Below are positions 14,901 through 35,096 of a stretch of DNA of 37,258 nucleotides, piece after piece. The stretch's first letter is position 1. Every line of letters begins with the position of its first letter. The stretch is from positions 1 to 37,258 of the forward strand of contig NZ_JAAHGO010000085.1 of the NCBI RefSeq assembly GCF_010672455.1. Reading direction: 5' to 3'. The notes beneath the pieces are model-generated. The model saw only the letters and a program-made list of their open reading frames with translations, ran no database searches and was not told the DNA's origin. Made by a program: the position numbers and the translations under genes. This stretch comes from Okeania sp. SIO2C9. GTDB lineage: Bacteria > Cyanobacteriota > Cyanobacteriia > Cyanobacteriales > Microcoleaceae.

Positions 14901-17408
14901 TTTCTCTAATACAATATCAACCAACTTCTCCATTTGCTCAAAATCACCATTCAAGTAGGTAGCTTCTGTCCCTTCTTCATGTAGTGCCAATGTTAGTTTA
15001 TATTGAGTGGACCAACTATTTTCAGTTAGTAAATTTATCCCTGTCTTAAAATAAGATATTGCTGTTTTATAAGCAGTAGAAACTTTAGCCTTAATTCCAG
15101 CTTTTAAATTTAAACCTGCTAATTCTTCCCTAGCTTCTGCTTCTGTAATTAATTCCACACCATAATTAAGTTGATTGACAATTTCAAAGATTTTTTCTTC
15201 TAGTTGGTCATCTGCCGTATTATTTAAGAGTAATCTGCCAATTTTCAGATGAATTTCTTGTTTTTTTTGTTGAGGAATTAGACTATAAGCTGCTTGTTGA
15301 ACCCGGTCGTGGAGAAAATGATAAATTGGTGTTTGTAAATCGGTTATTTCAGGCAAGCGATCATCATTTTCTCCCTGATAAAATTTATAGGTTTCGTCCT
15401 CTGGTAAAATCAATCCTTCTGATAAAGAATTCCATAAAATCAACGCAGTTTCTGACAGATTTTTCTCAGAAACAATAGATAGAGTTTTTAAATCAAACTT
15501 GTTACTAATACAAGCTGCTAATTGTAATATTTCCTGAGTTGAAGGGGGAAGTTTTTGTATTTGGGCAGCCATTAATTCAACTACATTTCCTCTAGCTGCT
15601 AAGATTTTAATTCCTGGCAAATCAAACAACCACTTACCCTGTTTATAGCTATAAAAGATTAATCTTTCCTTGTGTAGACACTTGATAAACTGAGCGCTAA
15701 AAAAAGGATTACCTTGAGTTTTTTGATAAATCTGTTCGCTAAGTACCAGTGATTCCTGTGGAGAATAATTGATAGTATCAGCAACCAAATTATTGAGTGC
15801 TGACTGACTCAAAGAAGTAAGAATAATTTGATTAACAACAGCACCTATTTTTTTTACTTCCTCAACAGTTAAGAGCAAAGGATGCCCAGAATTTACTTCA
15901 TTATCTCGATAAGCTCCTATCAGTAATAAATAGTTAATATCAACTTTTTCCATCACCAACTTCATCAACTTCAAGGAAGCTAAATCTGCCCATTGTAAAT
16001 CATCAAGAAATATAACTAATGGATGCTCTGCTTGAGCAAATACAGAGATAAAGTTTGATAGTAATAAATTGAAGCGATTTTCGGCAGCACTCGGAGATAA
16101 TTCCGTAGCAGGAGGTTGTTTGCCAATCAATAATTCTAATTCGGGAATTACATCAATTATAACTTGTGCTTCTTCCCCTAATACTTGTTGTAATTTAGTA
16201 GCGATCGCTTGTAATTTTTCTTCTGGTTCGCTTAAAATTTGCTTAATCAATTCTTGAAAGGCATTTAACCAAGCATAAAATGGAATATTTATTTGAAATT
16301 GTTCAAATTTTCCAGAAATAAAATAACCTCGTTTTTTGAGGATAGGTTTGTGAATTTCATGAACTAATGCTGATTTTCCAATACCAGAAAATCCCCCAAC
16401 TAACATCAACTCTCTTCGTGGTTTATATGGATGACAAATACGGTCAAAAGCTGTTAATATTTTTTCTACTTCTTGGTCTCTGCCATAGAGTTTTTCAGGT
16501 ATAATTAAGCAGTTGTTATTATCTTTTTCTCCCAAGTCAAATAATCTGATTTTTCCAGTATTTTCCCACTCAGACTGACATTTTTCTAGATCGTGGCGCA
16601 ATCCTGCTGTTGTTTGATAACGTTCTTCTGGTATTTTTGCCATCAATTTCAGCACAATAGCATTGAGAGCTGCGGGTATTCTTGGATTTAGCTCAATTAT
16701 AGATTGTGGTTGACGAGCAATGTGAAAGTGAACTAGCTCCATAGGATCTTTTGATTGAAAAGGGAGTCTTCCAGTCAATAATTCATAAAATGTAATCCCC
16801 AACGAATAAAAATCACTCCGATAATCAATACCTCGATTCATCCGTCCAGTTTGTTCGGGAGACATATAGGCAAGAGTACCTTCAAAAGAATTAGGATTGC
16901 GTATTTCTGGAGTCTCTTTCGGTAACTTAGTAGTGCTACTAAAATCAATTATTTGGATTTGTTTTGTTTGGGGATTAATAATAATATTGCGGGGTTTAAT
17001 ATCTTGATGAATAATCTGATGTTGGTGTAATTTTTCTAGTGAATTAACTATTTGCAGAGCAATGTGAAAAAATTGATTGATGTCTGTAGAAAAGCTGTTG
17101 AAATTAGAAGTATTTTGATTGTTGATAAATTGATGTAGAGAAATACCCCCAAAATCTTCCATTACTAATATTAAACGTTGCTCAAATTTTTCCAGAGCAA
17201 GCATTTTTACGATTCCTGGAAAATTCAAATTGTTGATAAGTGTGTAAGCATTCCGATATCGAGTCAATTCATTGAAATTAGGATAGGGATAATGTGGCAA
17301 CTTTAGGATGACTGGTTTTTGGTATAATTTTCCCCAAGCGCGATGAATAACAGTGCGATCGCTGACATATATTTTTTCTACGAGTTCATAGTTCAGTATT
17401 TTGTGCAT
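11943..17408 (-). CDS. Ser/Thr kinase - AAA ATPase - GAF - histidine kinase fusion
   Basis: About 1,821 aa. AGGGG lies 6 nt before the ATG ending at 17408, so that start is preferred over a TTG two codons upstream. Order: protein kinase (1-285; HQDIKPRN at about 134-141, DFS for DFG, APE-like MSPEQTGR, glycine loop degenerate); AAA/STAND ATPase (about 305-560; Walker A GGFSGIGKSALV, Walker B LVIFLDDLQWAD); a long helical TPR-like region (about 700-1290); GAF (about 1310-1490); coiled coil; histidine-kinase domain with phospho-site SLGQLVAGIAHEINNP, N-box NIIGNAIDAV, DNGIGMS and GTGLGLAIS. This is the HstK-type architecture of filamentous cyanobacteria, cytoplasmic and lacking membrane segments. 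A small repeat is inserted in frame in the GAF region (13189-13211). The tail is followed at once by a tandem array. Confidence 0.92.
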   Translation of the reverse strand: MHKILNYELVEKIYVSDRTVIHRAWGKLYQKPVILKLPHYPYPNFNELTRYRNAYTLINNLNFPGIVKMLALEKFEQRLILVMEDFGGISLHQFINNQNTSNFNSFSTDINQFFHIALQIVNSLEKLHQHQIIHQDIKPRNIIINPQTKQIQIIDFSSTTKLPKETPEIRNPNSFEGTLAYMSPEQTGRMNRGIDYRSDFYSLGITFYELLTGRLPFQSKDPMELVHFHIARQPQSIIELNPRIPAALNAIVLKLMAKIPEERYQTTAGLRHDLEKCQSEWENTGKIRLFDLGEKDNNNCLIIPEKLYGRDQEVEKILTAFDRICHPYKPRRELMLVGGFSGIGKSALVHEIHKPILKKRGYFISGKFEQFQINIPFYAWLNAFQELIKQILSEPEEKLQAIATKLQQVLGEEAQVIIDVIPELELLIGKQPPATELSPSAAENRFNLLLSNFISVFAQAEHPLVIFLDDLQWADLASLKLMKLVMEKVDINYLLLIGAYRDNEVNSGHPLLLTVEEVKKIGAVVNQIILTSLSQSALNNLVADTINYSPQESLVLSEQIYQKTQGNPFFSAQFIKCLHKERLIFYSYKQGKWLFDLPGIKILAARGNVVELMAAQIQKLPPSTQEILQLAACISNKFDLKTLSIVSEKNLSETALILWNSLSEGLILPEDETYKFYQGENDDRLPEITDLQTPIYHFLHDRVQQAAYSLIPQQKKQEIHLKIGRLLLNNTADDQLEEKIFEIVNQLNYGVELITEAEAREELAGLNLKAGIKAKVSTAYKTAISYFKTGINLLTENSWSTQYKLTLALHEEGTEATYLNGDFEQMEKLVDIVLEKAAQLLDKIKVYEIKIQAGITQSKLQEALTIGLSVLELIDIRFPANPTQLDIQEYLQTTKTKLRGKNISELINLPLLDDENKLAEMRILSSLFPIAFISKPELLPLIICVAINLSLQSGNSPLFAFYCASYGLLLCAVEQNIDAGYQFGRLACELLEKFNSKDQKTRVFQVVYNGIEHWKNHVQETFSHLLEAYKVGLEIGDLEFAAYSIFNYCSYSYFAGVSLDNLESEITNYSSSLKQIKQENNYYYNEMYHQAVINLRGGGENPELLLGSTYNEEKFIPFYQNINDHFALFQIYLHKLILSYLWGNFQISKHYAVLGEEYINGVMGFFYIPVYYLYRSLAQLACYSEAEAVERKQILEEVTANQEKMKFWAEHAPTNYSHKYYLITAEKHRILGEKLDAIETYEQAIALATENKYIQEAALANELCAKFYLEWGKTKIAQTYILEAYYGYINWGAVTKVKDLEKRYPQLLTSVFLSSSENSNSLATSHRQSSSRENILDLSTVLKAYQTLSGEVKLENLLSTLIRLIIENAGAQKCALVLLKDRQLILEAMSHVIDTAIEYPFRSASATNDQQYLQNFQRPAIPVSATQELPQTLINYVWRTRKFQVFDDVMTEAIWRNDPYLKRQQPQSILCTPIKKQGKIIGVIYLENNLTTGAFTSERLQLLEMITTQAAISLENALLYDTLEKKVKQRTEELNEKNQRLAQTLEELKRTQTQLIQTEKMSSLGQLVAGIAHEINNPINFIYGNIDHTQEYAENLLNVIKLYQQYYPKPFPEVTDIIEEIELDFLVADLPKILTSMKIGANRIKKIVEYLRNFSRLDESEVKNVDIHEGIDSTLMILQNNLKAKPHELEIKVVKNYGQLPKVRCYPGELNQVFMNIIGNAIDAVQPMRKESSNSLPQITITTEIETENQITIRIADNGIGMSEAVQKHIFDPFYTTKPVGKGTGLGLAISYQVIVEHHEGELECISALGKGTEFIIKIPG
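13189..13211. repeat. Small dispersed repeat inserted in frame in the kinase GAF region
   Basis: A 23-nt GC-rich element (GTAGCGCTCGCGGAGCGGAA and three more bases) in AT-rich coding sequence. On the coding strand it adds residues PFRSASAT (about 1400-1407) at the start of the GAF domain without shifting the frame. Confidence 0.65.
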
Positions 17409-17535
17409 CAGCAACCCCTAAATTATTAATTAAAGATCCTATAAGATTATACAAAAAAAATCATCATCCTTTTTGCTTCACTGTCAATTCTCGCAGTGCT
17501 TCTATTCTTTTTACAGCGCAATTCATTTAATATTA

Positions 17536-17628
17536 TCAGGACTTACGCAGAGAATCTACATATAGGGATAGCGAATACCATCTACCCCTACATATGGTGG
17601 TTTAACACTCAATTTGCGTAAGTCCTGA
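17536..17628. mobile_element. MITE family 2, copy A (TIR TCAGGACTTACGCA)
   Basis: A 93-bp element with left end TCAGGACTTACGCA and right end TTGCGTAAGTCCTGA. The interior contains CTACATATAGGG and CCCCTACATATGG. Other copies: 31261-31375, 31570-31660 and 35620-35708. It sits upstream of the giant kinase. Confidence 0.8.
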
Positions 17629-17736
17629 TCATGTCCAGTAGCATCGGTATTTTCAACAATTAATAATGAATAATGAATAATGAATAATTACCTCTCCATG
17701 AATGGAAGAGGATTGACAAAGAGATGAAAAATTTTC

Positions 17737-17865
17737 TTCACAGGAGTCGATTGGATATGGCGAGGAGACCTCGCCATCCCATCCTACGGAATGCTGCGCA
17801 AACGACCGCTTATTATCCCCTATCCAAGGGGAGGCGCATACCCACAATTTTTCGGTATAGCAGTC
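17737..17865. repeat. Dispersed repeat with hairpin, carrying a small-repeat insertion
   Basis: It shares order and sequence with 28487-28600: TCGATT(G/A)GATATGGCGAGG, the hairpin ATGGCGAGG/CCTCGCCAT, CGACCGCTT, an A/C-rich ATCCCC...AAGGGGAG hairpin, and CACAATTTTTCG. This copy has about 20 extra bases, CCTACGGAATGCTGCGCAAA (17783-17802), that are absent from the other copy. Upstream, 17658-17690 holds an AATGAAT heptamer run. Confidence 0.75.
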
Positions 17866-17982
17866 GAAGCAAAGGTTAGGACAGATAAAAAGCTTAAAAC
17901 TCAGATAACGTAATACTTTTCCTTCTTCCTTCTTCCCTCTTCCTTCTTTCTTCTGCTATAAGGGTGAAGGTAAGGAAGAAGC

Positions 17983-18043
17983 GGTGCGACCCCGCGTCGG
18001 CGTCAGACGCAAGGGAATGCTGACCAAGAGAGGGAATGCGCAC
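17983..18043. repeat. GC-rich dispersed repeat (GGTGCGACCCCGCG type)
   Basis: It starts GGTGCGACCCCGCGTCGG and ends ATGCGCAC. Related sequence occurs at 25866-25972 and, as a compact 45-nt form, inside the decayed tnpB at 35393-35437. A further GC-rich repeat (CCCGCGCTG...CAGCGTCGGG hairpin) lies at 18175-18205. No gene is seen in 17415-18293. Confidence 0.65.
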
Positions 18044-18265
18044 TCCTGTGAGGAAGAAGGAAGAGGGAAGAAAGCTTAAAAGCTTGAAAAAACTTAAATT
18101 TCCTGTAGATATTCGCCCTTGATTTTACACAAACGCGCCCCAACAGAAAGCCCCTAACAGTGATGTTAAGGAATCCCGCGCTGTCTCGTAGAGCAGCGTC
18201 GGGAGGATGTCAATAATGCGGTACAACTGATGGGGTAAATTTTTTGCTTGTTCCCAACTCCTATC

Positions 18266-18315
18266 TCCCCTACTCCCCTACTCCCCTACTCCCCTACTCC
18301 CCTACTCCCCTACTC
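18266..18315. repeat. CCCTACTC octamer array encoding a protein tail
   Basis: About six CCCTACTC units. The stop of the hybrid kinase (18294-18296) lies within it, and its last residues (SRGVGE) are encoded by repeat units. Confidence 0.85.
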
Positions 18316-21300
18316 TCTATTTCTTGGGTCAACTCTTCCTTAACTCGTTCCCATTCAGCTCCAACTAGAGAAAGAATTTCAAGAGCTTTTTTTAAATTAA
18401 AATCTGCTCCAGACTCAACCACAGCACGAGTCATATGCTCTAACTCTTGACACAATTCAGAAAAATTAATTGCTCCTAGTAAAGCACTACTAGACTTCAG
18501 AGTATGAGAAGCTCCTTTTAATGCAGTATAATCATGTTTTTTGATAGATTTCCTGATAATATCCATTTGCTTATTACCATCAACAAGATAGTCTTGCATC
18601 AAAATAATTAGAGTATCTGGTTCATCATCATAAAGATTGCGGAAATCTGCTAAAGTTTTGGGATTGATCGCTGATTTTTTCTCATCTTCTGCTTCTAATA
18701 TATTATCCAATAAATCTAAATCTTCAGCTGTAGCTCCATCAGTTTCTGGTGCATTCTCTAAATCAATTAAATGTCCGTCAAGTTCTGCCAATTCTTGTAA
18801 ACCTGCTTCAGAAATAAGTATCGTTTCATCATCATTAGTAGGAAGCAAACTACTGCTTGATGTTGGAGTGGGAAATACACTCTTAACTAACGCTTTTTCC
18901 TCCAACTGAGAGTTCAACTTGACTTTACCGTTGATAAATTTGTGCTTATAAGTAACTGGTTTCTTAGGAGGATCTCTTTTTACCAATGCTGAATCATTTC
19001 TAGGCATTGACTTCTCCTTTCGTATCTGCTTATAAGTAACTGGTTTCTTAGGAGGATCTCTTTTTACCAATGCTGAATCATTTCTAGGCGTTGACTTCTC
19101 CTTTCGTCTTGGCAGCTTGCATTTGTTGAGAGCTTCCACTAATTGATCACGACGAATTGGTTTGGTAACATAATCATCCATACCAGCATTGAGACATTTA
19201 TCACGATCGCCCTGCATAGCATTAGCTGTCATGGCAATGATCCAAGGACGTTTTTCTTCTGGATAATCTTGATGAATACGAATGGTGGTCTCTATTCCAT
19301 CCATCTGTGGCATCTGTACATCCATTAATACCACATCGTAGGGTACTCGCTTGAGAGCATCTAAAACTTCTATTCCGTTAGCAGCTACATCTGCACGATA
19401 ACCTATTCTTCCTAGCAAGTGTATTGCTACTTTCTGATTAATTACGTTATCTTCTGCCAACAAGATGCGGATATGAGAGCGATCGCTACTTCTCTCGCTA
19501 AACCTTTGAAAATATTTCAGACCTAAACTAGGAGTTTTTGCATTAGCTGTTTCATCTGCTGTAGTACCAAATACTTGCAATAAAACATTATAAAATTGAG
19601 ACTGTTTCACTGGTTTATTCAAAAAACCAGCTAAATTAACTTTTGCCTCTTGAAGTTCTCGGAAAATTTCTGCCTTGCCCAGATAAGTAAACATTAATAA
19701 GGGCAAAGATAACGAATAATTTTGCTCGGGATTTTGTTCAGTTTCCAACTTCCGAATCTTTCTCGCTAATGTCAGTCCATCCATATCTGAAAGATTCATA
19801 GCAATAATCCCTATATCAAAATCTCTTCTCTGCTTCAACCAGCTCAAAGCTTTTGTACCAGAATCAGCAATTATAGGTATCATTTCCCATGAATTAACTT
19901 GTTGTTTTATTACCTCTTGATTAACAGGATGACTTTCAACAACTAATAATTTTTTACCTTTTAAGAAACTATCAATTTCTTCAGAAGAAGGAACTGTAAT
20001 TGCTTCTGCTTGAATCGTAAAATAAAAAGTTGAACCTCTACGATCTGCTTCGGGTTTAACAAAGTAAGGAGGTGGAGACCCTGCTATATTTACTAGAGAT
20101 TTAGCAGTATTTGAGTTGGCAAAATTCACACCGGTTTCTCGATTATTAATTCTGCTGCTATTATCATTAATTTTTGATTTAATAATTTGCCTATTTTTTT
20201 CTTTCAATTCATCTGTTTCTTTCCACTGAGAAACCACCCACATTTTACCGCCCATCATTTCACTTAAACGCTGACTAATAGCTAATCCTAAACCCGTACC
20301 ACCATATTGTCTAGTTGTAGAAGCGTCTACTTGAGAAAAAGCTTTGAATAAGCGGTCCATGCGACCTGGGGGAATACCAATACCTGTATCTTTCACGGCA
20401 AACTGGATGTCATAGGTACCTGTGGTTTTACTAGGAGTTTCATCATTAAATATTCCCTCGTAATTCATATCTTCTAATTGATTATTTTGACCAACTTTTC
20501 TAGCCGTTACAGAAACAACCACCTCTCCTTTTTCTGTAAATTTAACAGCATTTCCTAGCAAGTTAACCAACACTTGACGCAGCCTTGTTACATCTCCTAC
20601 AATCATTGCTGGCACAGAACTATCAATTAAACAAGCAAGCTCTAAATCTTTATGTGCTGCCCTCGGTGCTAATAACTCTAACGCCTCTTCAACACAGTTT
20701 CTAATATCCAAAGAACTTTGTTCTAATTCCAATTTACCAGATTCTATTTTAGTAAAATCAAGAATATCATTAATAATAGTTAAAAGCGCATCTCCACTAG
20801 TGCGAATAGTCTCCACAAAATCTCGTTGTTCTGTCGTTAATTCCATATCTAATAGCAGACTTGTCATCCCAATTACACCATTCATTGGGGTGCGAATTTC
20901 GTGGCTCATCATTGCTAAAAATTCACTCTTGGCACGGTTTGCTACTTCTGCTGCTTGTCGAGCTTGTTCTAGAGCTTGATTTTGAGCTTCTAGCTGTTGT
21001 TTATGAGTAACTTCTGACTCTAATATGTGCGCCTGAGCTAATGTTAATCCTACCTGAGCTGCGACATTTTCTAATAAGTCTATTTCATCCTGCGTCCACT
21101 GACGCATATAATCACATTGATGTAAATTAATAATACCATTTGGTTGTCCTTGATAAGAAGTGCGAACTGCCAACATTGACCTAACATTTAGCCTCCGATA
21201 CATCGGTGCAGATGATTTTAATAAAAGGTCTGAAAATATATCTGGAGTAGCGATCGCTTTGTCTTCTGATAATAACTTTTCTGTATGAGAATTATAAGTA

Positions 21301-24011
21301 ACTACAATATCTAAATCTAAAGTTGATTCGTAACCAGTTTCCAAATATTCAGCAACACAAGGGAGGTGGGGATAAGGTTGAGAAAGATAATTATGGATTG
21401 AACAACGGTTGACTCCAAATACTCGCCCAATTTGAGTAGCAGTAGTCTGAAAAATTTCTTGAGTGTCTAACTTAGAGCGAATTTCTTGAGTAATTTGTTT
21501 GAGCAATAAAATGTGCTGATATTTTCTCTGTAAAGCTTCTATGGCATCTTGTCGCAATAATTCGCCACCTATATAAGTTGCCATTAACTTTAAAACTTCT
21601 ATCTCTGTTGAGTTCCATTGATTCTTCGGAAGACGACTGGTAAAACTGAGAGTGCCATAAATTCTTCCTAAAACAAAAATTTTCGTGCCAAGATAAGATT
21701 CTACGCGACGCACTGTATATGCTGGATGATGTCGCCACTGGGAATTTTTAGCAGATCCGATCGCTAGAGGTTCATTGGAGCGCAATACTTCCCGATCGAA
21801 TGTCTGTTGGAGGGCGAAAGCATCTCCTTTCGCTATTCCAAATAGGAAATCTTCTGGTAAGTGAGCAGCAATGACCTCGTAACGTTCTCCTAAAACTTTT
21901 CCTAATAGTCCTATATCCATGCCAAACCGACGGCATCCCATATCTAATAATGCAACTATTTTGCTTTCAAAAGAGTTATCTGCGTTAGTAGTAACTTCAT
22001 ATAGTTCTCTAATTGCTTTTTCATTAGCTTGCAAATTTTCTTGGGTTGCTATCCTCGCAGAAATTTCACTGAGGGTACTTACCATACCAGTAATATTGCC
22101 TTTGTTATCAGCTATCAATGTACTCTTCATTTCTACTGAACAATAATTCCCATTTTTGGTTAACCACTTCAATTGATAGCAACCTGCAACTAATTTTTTA
22201 TTACTAGCAACCAACTCTATATTTTCTTGGGTATTCTCTGCTGAAGAATTTAATTTTTTTCTATCTTCTGGGTGAATGAACTCTAAATAATTTCGACCTA
22301 AGCTATTTTCACAAGTAAAACCTGTAATTTTTTTCCAGGTCTCATTTAAGAAGATTAAATTACCTGTAGCATCAGTTTTAAAAGCTATCTCTTGAATATT
22401 ATTAACTATTTCGGTGTACTGTTTTACTTGATATTTTAGTTTTATTTCTGTTTCTTTAGACTGAGTAATATCTATCAAACTTCCCACCATTCTCACTGGG
22501 ATTCCTGATTGCCATAATGCTTTTCCTCTATCTAGAACCCAGATAAAGCTATGATTTTTGCGTTTGATGCGATATTCTATTCGGTAGAAAAGAGATTTAT
22601 TGGCTAAATGTTCTTGAACTGCTGCACTAACTTTGTCGATGTCTTTTGGATGAATTCTATTTAACCATTCATCAACTTTATGGGAAATTTCATTATCTTT
22701 GTAGCCCAATATTTTTTTCCACTGAGATGAGTAAAATATTTCATTTGTTTTGATATTCCAATCCCAAACTCCATCTTGATTTCCTTCAATTGCTATAACT
22801 GTACTTTCTTCTGTTTTGAGATTGATTTTTTCTAAATTTTTCCGTTCTACAGCAGACTGCTTGAATTTTTCATCGATTTTTTGCAGTTGAATAGATGTTT
22901 TTTCTATATAATTATGAAACCGAATTAATGATTGATATAATGATTTAGGTAACAGTATTTGTTGAATTATTTTTGTAGGAGTAATAATATTAGTTATTCT
23001 GCCTGTGGGACTTTGTACAATTAGAGGCAATAGATAATAACTTTTTTTCATTAAACCTAAAGCTACTTCTAGACTGGCCTGAGAACGTACTAGGACTGGT
23101 AAAGTATTACAAACTGTCTCAGCTTTAGTTTGATTAAAATCTATTTTTAATGCTTGTAGTTGTACTATATCTCTACTGCTAACTGTCCCTAATATTTTAG
23201 TCGATTTCTGATTTTGAAATGGATTTTCTTGAGTCTCAGTAATCAGAATATAACTAACATGATGGGTAAACATCAGTTGGGTAATTTGCCGAATTGATAA
23301 AGAAGATGAAGCTTTAATAATTTGAGATTCAGGGATTTGTTCTAATTGATTAATTTGGATTAAGTTAGTTGGTAAAGTTAAGGATGAGTCAAAAGTTATT
23401 TTTGGGGCATTATTGTGAGCTTCTAATTCTTGTTTTTGGGATGCGACCTTAGTACCATTTTTATTAATAGATGCTTCCCTTTGCCTGTTGGCTATTAAAT
23501 TTAGACTCTTGTTATTTGTCTGAGGCCGATCGAAAATTAAACTACGGGTAGTCAATAGGCCAATTAGCTCTTCTGACTCATCAAGCATTGGTAAATGGCT
23601 AATTTGATGTTTTTCTAGTATTGACAAGAGAGCAAAGATATCTTTAACTTCCGATATTCGGGCTGTTATGATGGATCTAATCATAATTTGAGCAATGGGA
23701 AATCCACTTAGGGAAGCGCCGATCGAGACTAGCTGTACTAAGTCTCTCTCAGTAAATATACCAACTATCAGCCCTAAAGATTGTAACTTTATATCTTGAG
23801 ATTTGGAACCATTACTTAGGTTTTGAGATTCTGTAGTGCGATCGCTTTGTGGAGGTGTTTTTACAACATTAGAAGGAGAGGATGATTCTACAATTAACAC
23901 ACAACTTGCACCTGTAAGACTCATAGAAGTAATTACATCTTCTATCGGAGTTTCTGGTGTAGCGGTAAAGGGATGATAATTAATGGCCTGACTGATGGAG
24001 GGGATAAACAT
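18294..24011 (-). CDS. CBS-PAS-GAF hybrid histidine kinase with two receiver domains and Hpt
   Basis: A 1,905-aa cytoplasmic multi-step phosphorelay protein. Order: two CBS pairs (about 1-165 and 215-355); PAS (about 405-520) and PAS (about 530-655), each with a C-terminal PAC-like strand; GAF (about 670-820); GAF (about 845-995); coiled coil; HisKA with phospho-site [12 protein letters not shown] (H about 1037); HATPase ([21 protein letters not shown]); receiver 1 (about 1375-1500); receiver 2 (about 1530-1650, AEDN and [11 protein letters not shown] intact); C-terminal Hpt with [12 protein letters not shown]. Receiver 1 lacks the acceptor Asp ([11 protein letters not shown], Ala in its place) and has VVESHP for the acidic pair, so it is a pseudo-receiver. 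The linker before Hpt carries an 84-bp duplication. No Shine-Dalgarno is evident at the ATG. Confidence 0.92.
18945..19112. repeat. 84-bp in-frame tandem duplication inside the hybrid kinase
   Basis: The segment 18945-19028 recurs at 19029-19112 with few differences. It encodes two copies of a 28-residue basic linker ([19 protein letters not shown]) between receiver 2 and Hpt. 84 is divisible by three, so the frame is kept. Confidence 0.9.
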
Positions 24012-24682: not shown

Positions 24683-25471
24683 GTGACCTTTGAAGAGTTG
24701 ATTCAGAAAGGAGGCCTAGCGATGTGGCCTCTATTAGTTTTATCAATTCTGTCCCTCAGTACCATAATAGACCGCCTATGGTTCTGGACAAATCTATTGA
24801 TTAAGGAAAAACAAACTGTGAGCCGAGTATTAGAAGCGGCACGTCGTGACTGGAGTATAGCTACAGAAATGGCTAGACGCACTCTAAAACAACCTATTGG
24901 TCGTTTTCTCTATGCTCCTCTGCGATTACAAAACCCAGAGCCTGAAGTGTTTAAATTGGCACTAGAGGCTTCTGCCGATGATGAGTTGGCCTCAATGCGT
25001 AAGGGAGATAAATTGCTGGAAGGGGTTATTGCTTTGGCTCCGATGTTGGGGTTACTAGGTACTGTTTTGGGTCTTATTGGTTCCCTTGGTTCGATTCGCC
25101 TTGGGGACCTGGGCACTTCTTCAACTGCGGGAGTGACAGTTGGTATTGGTGAAGCTTTAATTAGTACTGCTGCTGGTTTGGTAGTAGCTATTGTTAGTCT
25201 AGTATTTTATCGATTATTTCAAAGTTTGTTATTTAATCAGATGAAGGTTTTTCGGAAATCTGGCAATGAATTAGAATTACTCTATCGACAATATTGGCAA
25301 CAGACATCTTTAAATAAATACAATTCACCAGATAATAATACTTATTTTCCTCCTACATGGACGCAGAATTCTCATAATTTTCCAGATTCTTTAGAACAGG
25401 ATACAAAACCAACAGATTCTCCAGCAGAAAGGGATATTGATAGAACTGCAGATGAGCCAGATAATAATTAA
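24683..25471 (+). CDS. exbB: ExbB/TolQ/MotA-family proton-channel subunit
   Basis: A 262-aa inner-membrane protein that, with ExbD/TolR, couples the proton gradient to TonB-like or Tol-like machinery. It starts with GTG; AGGAG lies about 9 nt upstream. TM1 is at about 14-36 ([15 protein letters not shown]). A cytoplasmic loop (40-110) follows. The signature TM2 is [18 protein letters not shown] (about 117-134), then TM3 (about 155-180, [16 protein letters not shown]). A polar, Pro/Asp-rich tail follows. The last residues, PDNN, are encoded by AATTAAT heptamers that contain the stop codon. exbD lies 575 nt downstream, an unusual gap filled by a MITE and repeats. Confidence 0.9.
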
Positions 25472-25499
25472 TAATTAATAATTAATAATTAATAATTAA
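25463..25499. repeat. AATTAAT heptamer array at the exbB stop
   Basis: About five AATTAAT heptamers start within the last codons of exbB and run into MITE copy 3. Heptamer sequence (TAATTAATAATT) resumes after that MITE at 25747, so the MITE lies within the array. Confidence 0.85.
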
Positions 25500-25752
25500 T
25501 AATTAGGGCTTGCTGAATAAATCTAAAACCTTTTACAGATAGAGCTTTTAGCATTTTTAGGTCTGAAATACCTTGGTTTTCAGCTGTTCATGCTCAAAAA
25601 GTTACCATTTTAGGCACATCGTTGGGCAAAAAAAATTACTTTCCTGTTCCTCTAGTCCCCTACTCCTCTTTTCCTCTACTCCCCTCCTGGGAGGGGTTAG
25701 GGGTGGGTCCCCTACTCCTTAAAAAAGACTAGTGAAGCGCAAACCCTAATTA
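25500..25752 (+). mobile_element. MITE family 1, copy 3, between exbB and exbD
   Basis: TAATTAGGGCTTGCTGA at the left and GCAAACCCTAATTA at the right. The interior includes the shared blocks GCTCAAAAAGTTA and TTTTAGGC and a CT-rich stretch. The right TIR is partly altered (GTGAAGCGCAAACCC). Confidence 0.8.
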
Positions 25753-25865
25753 ATAATTGTTGAAAGGAGGTACTGATATAGCAATGTGCGCTGGCATATT
25801 TACAAATTACAAGAACTGTCCAATAGCTAAAAGTTTTATATTATCAGTTTTTTATTTCCCCTGTT

Positions 25866-25995
25866 GCCTCTCTTGGTCAGCATTCCCTCTCTTGGTCGGC
25901 GTTCCCTTGCGACTGGCGTCGTCGCGGGGTCCGACCGCTTGCGCCTGGCGGCGACGCGGGGTCTGACCGCTGTTGCCTGTTGCCTGTTGCCTGCG
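25866..25995. repeat. GC-rich dispersed repeats upstream of exbD
   Basis: Blocks such as CTCTTGGTCAGCATTCCC, GGCGTCGTCGCGGGGTCCGACC and its near copy GGCGACGCGGGGTCTGACC, followed by GTTGCCT heptamers (about 25970-25991). The first block matches 18002-18040 in reverse. The open stretch crossing this block (25757-25966) is repeat-derived, not a gene. Confidence 0.7.
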
Positions 25996-26046
25996 CACAG
26001 CGCTATAACTGATAACTGAACTGACTTTTTTCCAAACAAAAAAACA

Positions 26047-26613
26047 ATGAAACTTAATCAAGAATCTGCCACTGAAGAAGTTAGAATTGAGTTAATACCT
26101 CTAATTGATGTAATATTCTGCATTCTAACTTTCTTCCTTTTAGCGGCTTTACAACTAACTCGTCAACAGGCAATTAATGTTGACTTACCAAAAGCTAGCA
26201 CGGGTAAACCTCAATCACAAGATATGTTACTTGTCAGTGTGAATGAGGTGGGAAAAACTTTTATTGAACAACAAGCTGTAAATGCGGTTGAACTCGAAAA
26301 ATTTGTACGGAGATATCATCAAGTTAACCCTCGCGGAGTAGTTGTATTGTATGCTCCTAAAGAAGCAAGATACAATGATGTTGTGCAAGTTCTAGATTTA
26401 TTGCGAGAAGTAGGAGGCGATCGCGTGGCTCTAGCAACTTTACCAGGCGCACCTCAAACAGGTCCTGGTGCTACTACCAATACTAATACTGAAGAGTCAG
26501 TTACTCCCTCTGAGTCTGAGTCCAAACAACAACCTACTCCAGCAAGGACAGTGAACCCCAGTCAATTTCAGTTACCTACTGCTCCTGAGTCATCTCAACC
26601 ATCTAATCAATAA
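26047..26613 (+). CDS. exbD: ExbD/TolR-family biopolymer transport protein
   Basis: A 188-aa partner of the ExbB subunit. One N-terminal TM helix carries the conserved acidic residue in IELIPLIDVIFCILTFFLLAAL (residues about 15-36; Asp about 23). Periplasmic LPKASTG, then VDINxxG-like VSVNEVGKTF and a compact alpha/beta domain to about residue 135, are typical of the family. A low-complexity Thr/Ser/Pro/Gln tail follows (about 140-188). It would normally be co-transcribed with exbB; the inserted MITE and repeats (25500-25995) may carry or block transcription. No strong Shine-Dalgarno is seen before the ATG. Confidence 0.9.
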   Translation: MKLNQESATEEVRIELIPLIDVIFCILTFFLLAALQLTRQQAINVDLPKASTGKPQSQDMLLVSVNEVGKTFIEQQAVNAVELEKFVRRYHQVNPRGVVVLYAPKEARYNDVVQVLDLLREVGGDRVALATLPGAPQTGPGATTNTNTEESVTPSESESKQQPTPARTVNPSQFQLPTAPESSQPSNQ

Positions 26614-26694: not shown

Positions 26695-27369
26695 ATGGAA
26701 TTAGGGGATATTCGCGAGCAGCTTCACAATCTCAATGAGGTGAGTCAGACTCTGATGGAATGTGAGAGTGTTACAGATGCTGTGCAAAAAGCATTAGTTG
26801 AAGTTCGCAGCAAATTAGACGTTCAAGTTGCATCCATATTCTTATTTTCCAACGAAGGAGTCATTAGACGAGTAGGAATTAATGGTGTTGACGCTAAAGG
26901 AGAGCCAAAATAAATTGCGTTGGATTAAAAAAAGACTTAGTGAAATAAAGACAAAATTCAAACAAAATGAACCTGTCCCTGTGGACATCAACAAACTTGT
27001 CCAGAATGCTGTGAAGCTCATTTTATCTGAAGAGGAAATTAATATAGTTCCAACTTATCAAGATGGAATTCCAACTATTTATATTGATGAAAATAAAATC
27101 AGAAGTGTTATTTGTAACTTGCTGTCAAATGCATTAGCTGCCATTAGTAAATCTAATAGGAAAAATGGTCAAATATCAGTTATAACTGATGTTATTACAT
27201 TAAATCGGATACAGTACATTCAGGTATCTATTGAAGATAGATGATTATTGTTTATCCAGTTGTTTATCCAGGGAAGTCAGTTCCAGATATTATTCAAAAT
27301 GCTTTCTTTACAAGATTAGGTTGGTTTGGTGGTGCTTTAGGAACATTTTTTCAAAGAGGAAATGATTGA
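26695..27369 (+). pseudogene. Decayed GAF-histidine kinase
   Basis: Three frames in series. 26695-26913 gives a 72-aa GAF beginning (MELGDIREQLHNLNEVSQTL, then DVQVASIFLF). 26882-27244 gives a fragment of a kinase end, with an inter-domain helix and an N-box-like NLLSNALAAISKSN, then YIQVSIED stopping where DNGxGI is expected. 27241-27369 gives VPDIIQNAFFTRLGWFGGALGTFF, a distorted G2-like end. The GAF body and the HisKA region are missing, so an internal deletion plus frameshifts have destroyed a sensor kinase. Confidence 0.7.
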
Positions 27370-29485: not shown

Positions 29486-29926
29486 TTAACCAATATTGAC
29501 TTTCACAACCTTATTCTTTTCAGCTTCCGCTTTAGGCAAATGTAAATGCAAAATACCATCTTGATATTCAGCCTTAACTTCGTCATTTTTCACCCTCGCT
29601 GGTAAAGAAATTATTCGTTGGAAAGCACCATAACGAAATTCAGAACGAGTCAGAGCTTTTTCCTCAGTTTTAACTTCCTGACGACGTTCTCCTTTAATTG
29701 CTACAGCTTCCGCAGTAACTTGTACATCTACATCTTTAGCCTCTAAACCAGGAATTTCCAATTTTAACTCAATTGCTTCGTGGTTTTCTTCCATTTCTGC
29801 TGCTGGTGTAAATACTATTCCTTTTTCTTCACCGTTTAAATAAGGAGCAAAATTGTCAAAAACACGATTCATTTCTTTCTGTAATGAATCAATTTCACGC
29901 CATGGAGAAAAACGTACAATAGCCAT
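29486..29926 (-). CDS. Hsp20 / alpha-crystallin small heat-shock protein, copy 1
   Basis: A 146-aa ATP-independent chaperone that holds unfolding proteins. The N-terminus is FSPWREIDSLQKEMNRVFD. The alpha-crystallin domain spans about 40-135 and holds the conserved LEIPGLEAKDVDVQV, GERRQE, RSEFRYGAFQRIISLPARV and the closing A-x-Y-x-(D/N)-G-I-L signature (AEYQDGILHLHLPK). An AGGAGG lies 11 nt before the ATG. The protein is identical to copy 2, which lies 607 bp upstream; the DNA differs only by a few synonymous changes near the 3' end. A palindrome lies 65-83 nt upstream of the start. Confidence 0.95.
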   Translation of the reverse strand: MAIVRFSPWREIDSLQKEMNRVFDNFAPYLNGEEKGIVFTPAAEMEENHEAIELKLEIPGLEAKDVDVQVTAEAVAIKGERRQEVKTEEKALTRSEFRYGAFQRIISLPARVKNDEVKAEYQDGILHLHLPKAEAEKNKVVKVNIG

Positions 29927-30092: not shown

Positions 30093-30533
30093 TTAACCAA
30101 TATTTACCTTCACAACTTTATTCTTTTCAGCTTCCGCTTTAGGCAAATGTAAATGCAAAATACCATCTTGATATTCAGCCTTAACTTCGTCATTTTTCAC
30201 CCTCGCTGGTAAAGAAATTATTCGTTGGAAAGCACCATAACGAAATTCAGAACGAGTCAGAGCTTTTTCCTCAGTTTTAACTTCCTGACGACGTTCTCCT
30301 TTAATTGCTACAGCTTCCGCAGTAACTTGTACATCTACATCTTTAGCCTCTAAACCAGGAATTTCCAATTTTAACTCAATTGCTTCGTGGTTTTCTTCCA
30401 TTTCTGCTGCTGGTGTAAATACTATTCCTTTTTCTTCACCGTTTAAATAAGGAGCAAAATTGTCAAAAACACGATTCATTTCTTTCTGTAATGAATCAAT
30501 TTCACGCCATGGAGAAAAACGTACAATAGCCAT
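30093..30533 (-). CDS. Hsp20 / alpha-crystallin small heat-shock protein, copy 2
   Basis: Identical in protein sequence to copy 1, with the same leader, ribosome site and palindrome (30598-30616). The repeat unit is 607 bp and includes leader plus gene, so each copy carries its own control region. The last codons differ at synonymous positions (for example AAG GTA versus AAA GTC). Confidence 0.95.
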   Translation of the reverse strand: MAIVRFSPWREIDSLQKEMNRVFDNFAPYLNGEEKGIVFTPAAEMEENHEAIELKLEIPGLEAKDVDVQVTAEAVAIKGERRQEVKTEEKALTRSEFRYGAFQRIISLPARVKNDEVKAEYQDGILHLHLPKAEAEKNKVVKVNIG

Positions 30534-30616: not shown

Positions 30617-31260
30617 TTAAGTTCGGTTAATAACAGAGATACAATCGCATTTCCCGTACCTCAATTTTTTTACCACCAAAACTCACCTTCAAAACCAAGT
30701 TGAAGTTGTTTTCATTCAACTTGTCTTTAATGTAATCTAAGTAGAAAAATAATTGAATTCGGTTCCTTCCTACTGTGCGATCGCAATTACCGAACATCTA
30801 TAATTTTCTGGCAAAAAAATATCGTTGTTAGCGTCTATATGTTAGGACTAATACCATGCATGAAAAAAGAATGTTACTAATAATAAGCACCATAAAAACA
30901 CTTTCAGATAAAGTCTGTTTTACGAAAAAAGTAATTTGCAACATCAAAAATGGTATTAAACCTATCCATTCTGGATTCTAAATTATAAATTATAAATTCT
31001 AAATTCTAATAAATACCCTAACTATTTGTAGCAAACATTTATCAATTTGGTATAATGTCTATCTTACTTAGCAGTTGCAGGAAAAAGGAAACTTATTGCT
31101 GGGTGGTTGCAAATAATCTTAGCCGAAGCATTATTCTAGCTGCAGTTAATCCCGAACCAGGCCCAGAATGAGCGTTATTCCCGGCCAAACCTAATTTTTA
31201 TTGCTGGTCGTAACATTTTTTAACTTAACATTCATCTATCGGAAATACTTCTGATGGTAT
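30617..31260. other. Spacer without a supported gene
   Basis: AT-rich, with one HIP1 site near 30778 and a short two-unit heptamer run (CTAAATT/ATAAATT) at about 30978-31006. No open frame with protein-like content was seen. Confidence 0.5.
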
Positions 31261-31375
31261 CAGGACTTACGCAAATTAACTTTGAAACCACCATTTGTAG
31301 AGGCGAATGGCATTTGCGTTCCGCAAAGCTCCGAATTGCGCCCTCACTATATGTAGAGTCTCTGCGTAAGTCCTG
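31261..31375. mobile_element. MITE family 2, copy B
   Basis: CAGGACTTACGCA at the left and TGCGTAAGTCCTG at the right, 115 bp. Its interior has gained small GC-rich repeats (GGCGAATGGCATTTGCG, TTCCGCAAAGCTCCG), making it longer than the other copies. Confidence 0.8.
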
Positions 31376-31379
31376 GGTA

Positions 31380-31688
31380 TAATATTATGTCCGGTTGAAC
31401 AGTTATAAATAAATAACGACGGAGGAGTCAGGAGTCAACCCACCCCTCGCCCCTCCCCCTCCCAACCCACCCCTAACCCCTCCCAGGAGGGGAGGGGAAC
31501 TCAGGAGGGAAGAAAGAAGAAGGAAGAAGGAAGAACAACAACAGGAGAAGAAGGAGAAAGTTTTTTGATCAGGAATTACGCATTTTCATGGAAAAACACT
31601 ATATATACCATAGTACAATAGTTTTTATATACTATATGTAGTGTATTTGCGTAATTCCTGTTTATCAGTAATTATCCGGAGATGATAT
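31380..31688 (+). mobile_element. MITE family 3, left copy (TIR ..ATGTCCGG), split by a nested MITE
   Basis: It shares GTCCGGTTGAACAG, ATAAATAACGA, GGAGGAGTCAGGAGTCAACC, CCACCCCTCGCCCCTCCCCC, AGGGAAGAAAGAAGAA and GGAGAAAGTTTTT with 34925-35096, then ends ATTATCCGGAGATGATA. Copy C of MITE family 2 is inserted near its right end. Confidence 0.75.
31570..31660. mobile_element. MITE family 2, copy C, nested, with matched TIR changes
   Basis: CAGGAATTACGCA and TGCGTAATTCCTG. Both arms differ from the family (GGACTTACG / CGTAAGTCC) at the paired position, so complementarity is kept. The interior shows CACTATATATAC and ACTATATGTAGTG. It interrupts MITE family 3 (compare the uninterrupted AGTTTTTATCACTAATTATC at 35065-35084). 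Confidence 0.85.
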
Positions 31689-31741: not shown

Positions 31742-34700
31742 ATGAGTATTCCAATTCAGGTTTCACCGCCAACCAACGATCTGACCCTGTCAAAAGATCA
31801 GACCCTCGCCGAAGTGGTTAAGGTCACGATTCCGAAATCAGGAATAGCCCCGAAAGTCGATGTCTATTTGCTATCAGACACGACTGGTAGCATGGGTCCA
31901 GCGATCGCCTCCGTCTAGAGAGGCATGGTAGATATAGTCAACCAAACTCAGGCTTTAGGGTCTGATGTCCAGTTTGGAGTGGGCAACTACAAAGACTTTC
32001 CAGCTCCGGATCAGAACAGACATCCCTTCGCCTTCCAGCACCAGTGTAATCTGACTGCCAATATCGCCGACGTTAAAGCAGCAGTCGATACCTGGAGCAC
32101 GACCCCAGGTAGGGACGTTCCCGAGGCTCAGTTCTATGCCCTAGATCGGGTGGCCGAACCACCAGGTGGCAACATTGGTTGGCGTGCCGATGCCCAGCGG
32201 ATCATCGTCTGGATTGGTGATGCCGGAGGTCATGACCCTATATGCAAGGCAATCTCCAGCCTAGACTACAACATTACCGAGAAATCAGTCACCGATAAGC
32301 TAGTGGCCGAGAAAATTACCGTGCTCGCAATGAGCTTGAGAAGCAGTGGCGCACCGGCCGGGCTGGATAACCCGATCGAAAGGGTAAGTGATTGGTATCG
32401 CAATAATTGCGGCAATCCATTGGGCGAAGCGGGACAAGGAACCCGGATTGCCAATACAACGGGGGGCATACTAATCCAAGGTGTCAGTCCAGATACTGCT
32501 GTTGAGCGGATTATTGCTGAGTTAGCAGCACAGATCACCACAATCAGGAACGTGCGCCTAGTAGCGAGTGGTGCGACCGAACCGTTTGTGCAAGCGATCG
32601 CCCCGGCAGCCGGTCATGGCCCCCTCAGCAGAGAGCAAGACCATGAAATTAGCTTCGACGTTTCCTGGCTTGGTAATGTTGCAGCCGCCACAGAGATTCA
32701 GGTCTTCAACGGCTCCCTTGATGTCGTCGCCGATGGACAAATCGTTGGCAGCAAGACAGTCAAAATCACAGTTCCTGCCATCATTCCGCCTGGTCCCTAT
32801 CAGCATATTCCTTTAATAGTGGAGCTTTACGAACACTGGTTCACCACGAACTCCTTGGGGGGTGGTCCAGGGCGACGTCTTCTGTTGGGCCAGGATACCC
32901 CCAGCCTGGTTCCTTATCATATGAATAACGTCACGACTTCGTTGAAGATCCGTCCGGGTCCGAACTTCGACCCGAATGCCGACTACGAGGTGAGCTTCTA
33001 CAACGACCCCGACTATATCGGAGGTCAGTTAGTGCTGAAGCCTGGTGAGTATCCGGATCTAAATAGGGGACCAATCAATTTCGGGGACGCGATCTCTTCG
33101 GTCAAGTTCGACCAGGGTGTGCCACCAGCCCCAGCGGTGAGTCCGATCCCGGTGGTAGCCGAACTCTACAGCGGTGTGAACTACGGAGGAACTCGGAAGC
33201 TGATTATATTTGAGGATGTGGACAACCTGAATACCTACTCTGAGTTCGACAACCTGGCTTCCTCGGTGAAGGTATTCAAAGGGCCGAACTACAGGCCAGG
33301 AGATAAGATCAGGCTCTACGACCTTTTCAATGGTACTGGTGACTACATCGACCTTGAACCCGGTGAGTATCCGGATCTCCAACAGAGCCACCGCTTTACT
33401 AATAGGACCTCATCGACCCGGTTCATCATCGGAGATGGCACAGGGTCTGAACCAGCTTCCCCCGGGTCCATGGAGTACGCCCACATTCCCTTAATCGTGG
33501 AACTGTACCAGCATTTATTCACCCCGAGCACGCCTTGGATGGGGGCTCCAGGGCGACGTATTCTGTTGAGCAAAGACACCCCCAACGTGGCTACTTATTA
33601 TATAAATAACACAGTTAGCTCGTTGAAGATCCGTCCGGGTCCTAACTTTGACCCGAATGCCGACTACGAGGTGAGCTTCTACCGCGAGGCCGACTATATC
33701 GGTGGTCAGTTAGTGCTAACGCCTGGTGAATATCCGGATATCCACTTTGGACCAATCAGGTTCGGGGACCAGATCTCTTCGGTCAAGTTCAACCAGGGTG
33801 TGCCACCAGCCCCAGCGATGACTCCGATCCCGGTGGTAGCCGAACTCTACGACCTTATAAACTACGGAGGCCGGAAGCGGATTATATTTGAGGATGTGGA
33901 TCACCTGGGTCACTACTCTGGCTTCAACGACCGGACTTCCTCAGTGAAGGTATTCAAAGGGCCGAACTACAGGCCTGGAGATAAGATCAGGCTCTACGAC
34001 CTTTTCAATGGTACTGGTAACTACATCGACCTCGAACCCGGTGAGTATCCGAATCTCCAACAGAGCCACACCTTTAGTAATAGGACCTCATCGACCCGGT
34101 TTATCATCGGAGATGGCACAGGGTCTGAACCAGCTTCCCCCGGGTCCATGGAGTACGCCCACATTCCCTTAATCGTGGAGCTGTACCAGCATTTATTCTG
34201 GAGAGGGAATCCAGGTATGCGTCTGCTCTTGAGCCAAGACACCCCCGACCTGGATCTTTATTATATGGATAACAGAACTAGCTCGTTGAAGATCCGTCCG
34301 GGTCCGAACTTCGACCCGAATGCCGACTACGAGGTCAGCTTCTACCGCGACCCCAACTATATCAGTAGTCAGTTAGTGCTGAAACCTGGTGAATATCCGT
34401 ATATCCACATACCAATGCGGTTCGGGGAGTCGATCTCTTCGGTCAAGTTCAACCAGGGTGTGCCACCAGCCCCAGCGGTGAGTCCGATCCCGGTGGTAGC
34501 CGAACTCTACGACCTTATAAACTACGCAGGCCGGAAACTGATTATATTTGAGGATGTGAACCACCTGGGTCAATACTCCGGCTACAACGACCTGACTTCC
34601 TCGGTGAAGGTATTCAAAGGGCCGAACTACAGCCCAGGAGATAAGATCAGGCTATACCAAGATCCCGATGCTAGTGGTAACTACATCGACCTTGAACCCG

Positions 34701-34774
34701 GTGAGTATCCGAATCTCCAACAGAGCCACTCCTTTGGTAATATGACCTCATCGACCCGGTTTATCAAAGCATAA
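31742..34774 (+). CDS. VWA + beta/gamma-crystallin repeat protein, interrupted by an in-frame TAG at codon 59
   Basis: From ATG 31742 the frame is open to 34774 (1,010 codons) except for TAG at 31916-31918. The first 58 codons give a VWA beginning with MIDAS motif DTTGSM (46-51), followed by PAIASV-stop-RGMVDIV; the stop probably replaced a CAG. The VWA continues (FGVGNYKDFP, IIVWIGDAGGHD) to about residue 280, then a beta-sandwich linker. From about residue 353 come three units of about 226, 226 and 206 aa, each with two Greek-key beta/gamma-crystallin domains bearing the Ca-binding pattern (N/D)(N/D)xx(S/T)S (NDRTSS, NDLTSS, DNRTSS). No signal peptide is seen. The gene is visibly GC-richer than its neighbours, suggesting transfer. 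The ATG at 31925 would give a product without the MIDAS. Confidence 0.85.
32798..34774 (+). repeat. Three long coding repeats of crystallin-domain pairs
   Basis: Units at 32798-33475 (678 bp), 33476-34153 (678 bp) and 34154-34774 (621 bp). Each begins (Y)xHIPLIVELY, passes through RPGPNFDPNADYEVSFY, PIPVVAELY, VKVFKGPNY and PGDKIRLY, and ends SSTRFI. DNA identity between units is high over long blocks, so they expanded recently or are being homogenised. Confidence 0.9.
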
Positions 34775-34924
34775 CCGTTCTACTAAACTTACCCAAACTT
34801 ACCCATGCGTGATTGCATGAGCTTTGGAGCTAGCTTCCTGCTTCTCTGAAGACCACTGACCGCAGTCTGTAACTTATCTTCAAGAGCAGGCTTAAATTCG
34901 CTTGAGTTTCAAGCTACTGATTCA

Positions 34925-35096
34925 TATCATGTCCGGTTGAACAGTGATCAATAAATAACGATGGAGGAGTCAGGAGTCAACCCACCCCTCGCCCCTCCCC
35001 CTCCCAGGAGGGGAAGTCAGGAGTCAGGAGGGAAGAAAGAAGAAGAACTGGAGTTGAAGGAGAAAGTTTTTATCACTAATTATCCGGACATGATAT
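34925..35096 (+). mobile_element. MITE family 3, right copy (TIR TATCATGTCCGG)
   Basis: TATCATGTCCGG at the left and CCGGACATGATA at the right, perfect 12-nt inverted ends, 172 bp, same orientation as the left copy at 31380. The two copies flank the crystallin gene. The 150 nt between the gene and this element show nothing recognisable. Confidence 0.8.

Follow-up and report, generated by a model that had tools for sequence, protein, structure and literature searches.

An in-frame TAG private to Okeania sp. SIO2C9 in a gene for an integrin-beta-type head and a beta/gamma-crystallin tail: probably a recent nonsense mutation

The window, meaning here the whole stretch of DNA that was analysed, comprises 37,258 nucleotides from Okeania sp. 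SIO2C9 (assembly GCF_010672455.1, contig NZ_JAAHGO010000085.1, positions 1 to 37,258, forward strand). A reading frame that begins at the ATG at 31742 runs for 58 sense codons, meets a TAG at 31916-31918 (codon 59), and then continues for 951 sense codons to a TAA, with no second stop or frameshift in the part past the TAG (Table 1). The frame was thus read exactly as the first-pass annotation had described it, including a TAG placed eight codons after a MIDAS motif: DTTGSM occupies residues 46-51, and the TAG is the eighth codon after M51. Sequence conservation to either side of the stop, also claimed there, was recovered as well, since the upstream 58 residues were 93% identical to the copy in the MAG Okeania sp. 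SIO3B5 (NZ_JAAHHG010000211.1), whose frame continues there without a stop, and the downstream part matched the Pfam families PF00030 and PF00362. The conservation of the frame on both sides of the TAG is not due to chance. One copy of the gene was found in the 10.9-Mb genome (317 contigs), for which a completeness of 99.98% is rated. The window also holds two very large signalling proteins, one of kinase-AAA-GAF-histidine kinase type (11943-24011, minus strand) and one of CBS-PAS-GAF-histidine kinase-receiver-Hpt type (24683-26613, plus strand), two overlapping short frames at 26695-27244 that by eye resemble sensor kinase remnants, and an ExbB/ExbD-like pair.

Table 1. Features of the interrupted gene and of the region upstream of it, in window coordinates
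Feature	Position	Strand	Remark
83-nt dispersed repeat upstream of gene	31382..31464	+	95% copy downstream, 34924-35006, same orientation
91-nt dispersed element, 13-bp perfect inverted ends	31570..31660	.	81 nt upstream of start codon
First 58 codons, with MIDAS motif	31742..31915	+	Homologous to start of relatives' proteins
Integrin-beta-type head, residues 6-166	31757..32239	+	Profile of 11 relatives vs PDB: beta-3 E 1.5e-9, beta-8 E 4.8e-13
MIDAS motif DTTGSM, residues 46-51	31877..31894	+	D46, T48, S50 conserved in 10/10 covering rows
In-frame TAG, codon 59	31916..31918	+	Sense codon in 16/16 readable relative copies
951 sense codons past TAG	31919..34771	+	Terminated by TAA 34772-34774
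Frame from first ATG past TAG, 949 aa, without MIDAS motif	31925..34774	+	Start used by no readable relative
D-V-P-E, residues 125-128	32114..32125	+	Aligns with D-x-P-E of integrin beta (beta-8)
Region separating head from crystallins, residues 269-345	32546..32776	+	Probable beta-sandwich, by eye; conserved in A3
Six beta/gamma-crystallin domains, three tandem pairs	32795..34771	+	Pairs 32795-33475, 33476-34141, 34142-34771

The head was compared with the PDB using a profile built from the heads of 11 copies, with the window's own row left out and a threshold of E 0.001. All 60 matches were integrin beta chains (one of them named 'integrin beta-2-like protein'), the best being beta-8, and the full-head matches to beta-3 and beta-6 started at residue 6, ahead of the I domain. 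Besides the three MIDAS residues, D125, E128 and IGWR were conserved in 11/11 rows and P127 in 10/11. The MIDAS-type DxTxS, the D-x-P-E and the IGWR are common to these heads and to the integrin beta head (beta-8, beta-3, beta-6). The D-x-P-E residues form part of metal sites in integrins, whose acidic pair at the adjacent (second) metal site is absent here. Integrin_beta (PF00362) was also matched by the 951-aa piece alone (E 8e-7), the 58-aa piece alone gave no Pfam match, and a structure prediction of the head from a three-row alignment reached a pLDDT of 28.9. By these sequence comparisons the head is assigned as an integrin-beta-type I-like domain with a MIDAS motif, so that of the VWA-plus-crystallin architecture first proposed the outline stands and 'VWA' is refined. 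The EGF repeats and the transmembrane and cytoplasmic parts of an integrin beta subunit were matched by no Pfam model here; the tail is instead crystallin. As to the integrin hybrid domain, in which the I-like domain is inserted, the beta-3 and beta-6 matches from residue 6 may cover its first part, but the sequence past the I domain (residues 269-345) gave no database match. No hydrophobic, signal-peptide-like stretch was visible by eye at the N-terminus.

In the tail, Crystall (PF00030) was matched over six stretches of the 951-aa piece (E 7.5e-35), and one strict Ca-type motif was found per domain, at residues 395, 503, 622, 729, 843, and 949, in agreement with the six Ca-binding crystallin domains that the first-pass annotation had predicted. 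The pattern [DN][DN]xx[ST]S occurred six times in the 666-aa crystallin part, whereas 500 shuffles averaged 0.11 occurrences and never exceeded 2; the second motif of each domain appeared degenerate by eye. A model of a crystallin pair was weak (pLDDT 59.5; best match at TM 0.33 and 12.9 A rmsd), and the 50 rows shown by a structure search with it were all crystallins or a crystallin-based design (TM about 0.33). Judged from its motifs and profile matches, the tail belongs to the beta/gamma-crystallin superfamily, with predicted paired Greek keys. The microbial Ca-binding beta/gamma-crystallins 2k1w and 3hz2 were both matched by phmmer at E 0.0038; the difference from them is that six domains in three pairs are here fused to an integrin-like head. 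Elsewhere in the same genome, at C179:16879-16992 (L063), a 208-aa frame gave one more beta/gamma-crystallin match, which covers positions 1-39 of 82 (26 bits).

The unbroken heads of relatives are predicted to coordinate a divalent ion through which an acidic ligand would be bound, and the crystallin domains, going by their motifs, would bind Ca2+ and stiffen or oligomerise. The unbroken protein may accordingly be described as a putative Ca-dependent ligand-binding or adhesive module.

Matches to the gene were obtained in 13 of the 291 order genomes drawn (counting the own genome and one weak match), in 7 of 61 family genomes (counting the own genome and two weak matches, E about 1e-11), and in 2 of 5 genus genomes, namely the own genome and SIO3B5. 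A separate draw of 386 phylum genomes, which differs from the order draw, returned only the own genome at E 1e-20. Within this sampling the gene is patchily distributed and appears dispensable. The other close copies come from genomes taken, from agreement in coordinates and sequence, to be SIO2F4 and Hydrocoleum sp. CS-953, both of the same family as the window's genome and of another genus in the grouping used. Among crystallin-tailed copies, that of SIO2F4 was the only one with a single uninterrupted start-to-stop frame (1018 aa); the Hydrocoleum frame is interrupted at assembly Ns, and the copy of genome G231 is open for 956 aa, running from a contig end. The SIO3B5 copy is broken at another place, its match to the window stopping at L021:7859 with a stop codon within the next ten bases, and by this comparison it is truncated independently of the window's copy. 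The sequence past that break (L021:7860-8330) had no match in the window and may resemble a transposon end.

Among the relatives, codon 59 was readable in 16 copies belonging to 14 genomes, with loci repeating one copy entered once and one genome used per species; three distant copies unreadable at the site (L013, L117, L118) and one beginning past codon 59 (L002) were left out of the count. A sense codon was present in all 16: CAG in the three closest (SIO2F4, L019; SIO3B5, L021; Hydrocoleum, L020), AAG in nine (L003, L004, L005, L006, L007, L011, L012, L014, L120), and AAA in four (L008, L009, L010, L119). In the search of the family and genus genomes (61 family genomes), an internal stop occurred only in the window's match (one TAG). 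The TAG at codon 59 is therefore, as far as these alignments can be read, private to the own genome among readable relatives, which fits a recent mutation. The upstream part was likewise present in every readable copy, in 14 with a beginning of the window's type and in two (L011 and L012) with a divergent equivalent; in L020 the first residue is masked by an N. Because all 16 carry this part, none begins at the position equivalent to 31925, and the case that the first-pass annotation had named as refuting its reading, relatives that naturally start at that ATG, was not found.

Upstream of the gene, two flanks that lie 421-436 bases apart in the window (31260 to 31680 or 31695) are joined directly in SIO2F4 and Hydrocoleum. 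Both the 83-nt repeat and the 91-nt element fall within this inserted stretch. At the equivalent place in SIO3B5 there is a shorter insert of about 110 bases, which can be aligned with window 31568-31680, so that dispersed repeats stand just upstream of both broken copies and are absent from SIO2F4 and Hydrocoleum. In searches of the own genome in which 40 candidates were scored for each repeat, at least 40 matches to the 83-nt repeat and at least 47 to the 91-nt element (98-nt query) were found, both lower bounds that include the query. It is a guess from four copies that the repeats displaced the promoter and that expression was lost first.

The age of the lesion was judged from changes unique to single copies (synonymous/nonsynonymous). 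Over 343 head codons compared in four sequences these numbered 4.5/4.5 in the window, 3/5 in SIO2F4, 14/6 in SIO3B5, and 6.7/15.3 in Hydrocoleum. The final 432-440 codons of the tail, compared in three sequences, gave 18/39 in the window, 17/42 in SIO2F4, and 14/22 in Hydrocoleum. These counts give no clear sign that selection on the window copy has relaxed, and the window-only head changes look constrained rather than neutral. For the same tail codons, dN/dS was 0.74 between the window and SIO2F4, 0.69 between the window and Hydrocoleum, and 0.62 between SIO2F4 and Hydrocoleum. A value of 0.77 for the whole tail (665 codons, window against SIO2F4) might suggest decay, yet the SIO2F4-Hydrocoleum value of 0.62 is nearly as high. 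The first crystallin pair (323 codons) points the opposite way, with values of 0.66 and 0.51 for pairs involving the window against 0.23 for SIO2F4-SIO3B5, which would suggest an older relaxation. With some 66 such changes all assumed to be neutral, the expected number of extra stops is about 2.0, and none was observed (P = 0.13). The lesion is probably young, on weak evidence; the lack of a second lesion and the constrained-looking head are compatible with a lesion of very recent origin, with an error, or with continued use of this part. The high dN/dS of the crystallin tail in the window, SIO2F4 and Hydrocoleum (0.62-0.74) may reflect fast evolution or shuffling among repeats.

A search of the own genome for the tRNA family, in which 150 of 698 first-look candidates were scored, gave 46 matches, of which 43 were named by ARAGORN and three were read by eye (Leu-like TAG, Met CAT, and class-II-like GTG); a CUA anticodon was found in none of the 46. 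A pattern for CUA-anticodon tRNAs matched the genome 71 times, against 117 times for a reversed control. Of these 71 candidates 34 were examined and rejected: 30 loci held only tRNA-Arg(tct) and tRNA-Leu(tag), and four further candidates, taken as stretches, gave Asp, Glu, Arg and Leu(cag) tRNAs, with one stretch lacking a tRNA. Eleven of the 46 matches form a cluster at C280:20897-28154 (L095:3898-11156), and the class-II-like match near L095:6420-6515, uncalled by ARAGORN, has an unusual loop that by eye gives GTG.

We consider it likely, with a probability of about 0.78, that a single-base nonsense change recently broke a single-copy gene whose unbroken form comprises an integrin-beta-type head, a probable beta-sandwich, and six crystallin domains. 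Translation would then end after residue 58, leaving a fragment that has the MIDAS motif and no whole domain; little or nothing of the remainder would be made, no full-length MIDAS-bearing protein would be formed, and the gene would be in early decay. A recent mutation was one of three readings offered by the first-pass annotation, and it is the one favoured by the sense codon in all 16 readable copies and by the CAG of the closest. An error of sequencing or assembly, under which codon 59 is in truth a sense codon and the gene intact in the living strain, would also account for that count, for a lone difference followed by 951 codons free of stops and frameshifts, and for a head without excess amino-acid change on the window side. 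We nevertheless hold it to be unlikely, as finished assemblies seldom contain substitution errors and the genome is rated nearly complete; moreover, loss of the gene in the genus is plausible because the SIO3B5 copy is also broken, at another place, which counts against an assembly error.

The other two readings offered, a functional split and stop read-through, gained no support. Re-initiation at the ATG at 31925, six bases past the stop and in frame, would yield a 949-residue product with its crystallins still working, and the unbroken 951 codons speak for such a split. The product would, however, be without the first strand of the head and the MIDAS motif, a form with no precedent among the 16 readable copies, and the sole purine-rich stretch preceding that ATG, AGAGG, stops a single base short of it (by eye) and is coding in relatives too, so that a split of this kind is very improbable. 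Partial or regular decoding of the TAG, giving the full-length protein, would explain why conserved sequence flanks the stop on both sides, yet prfA is present in the genome (528.9 bits), TAG terminates 5 of 16 other window ORFs checked, no Rfam match was obtained in the window, and the stop is shared by no relative; taken with the absence of a CUA anticodon from the tRNA matches scored, read-through is given the least credence of all. To take the TAG for recoding or for a designed split would mislead. The gene is most likely, from its sequence, an ordinary young pseudogene with a private lesion, from a mildly interesting family.

The protein family is of more interest than the stop. Same-head cyanobacterial proteins (L003-L008 and L010) have heads 64-69% identical to that of SIO2F4, with 41% for L012 and 76% for L002. 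Their tails are quite different: a ricin-B-like tail was matched, short of the curated cut-off, in L003 (E 6.4e-5) and in L010 (E 0.0015), and was assigned by eye in others, and the tail of L012 consists of two ILEI domains (E 1.2e-39). A Trichodesmium erythraeum integrin-beta-like sequence is mentioned in PMC3192720, and integrin beta chain-like proteins of cyanobacteria are listed in a table of PMC2651865; in the parts of these papers that describe them, the proteins likewise have an A/I-like domain and no evident transmembrane part, a likeness drawn by description, and a crystallin tail goes unmentioned. In the titles and abstracts of the literature searched, no account was found of a crystallin tail joined to an integrin- or VWA-type head. 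We would class the window gene with this cyanobacterial integrin-beta-like kind of protein, as a member broken recently, and its family adds a crystallin-tailed variant to a little-studied group. We suggest tentatively, as a possibility somewhat short of even odds, that the bacterial integrin-beta head, an I-like domain set in a hybrid-like sandwich, is an interchangeable ligand-binding cassette carried on crystallin, ricin-like and ILEI tails. If true, the module that animals incorporated in integrins exists in cyanobacteria as a free-standing form with exchangeable tails, and the window shows one gene of this sort in the course of being lost. The SIO2F4 protein provides an unbroken natural orthologue with which to ask if ligand binding by a bacterial MIDAS head depends on metal, a question that bears on the origin of the integrin head.

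Tandem small heat-shock genes (Hsp20-like, by eye) lie on the minus strand in the window, at 29486-29926 and 30093-30533, and in SIO3B5, at L021:3901-4341 and L021:4641-5081. The paired 146-aa proteins are identical within each genome and different between genomes, as if by gene conversion.
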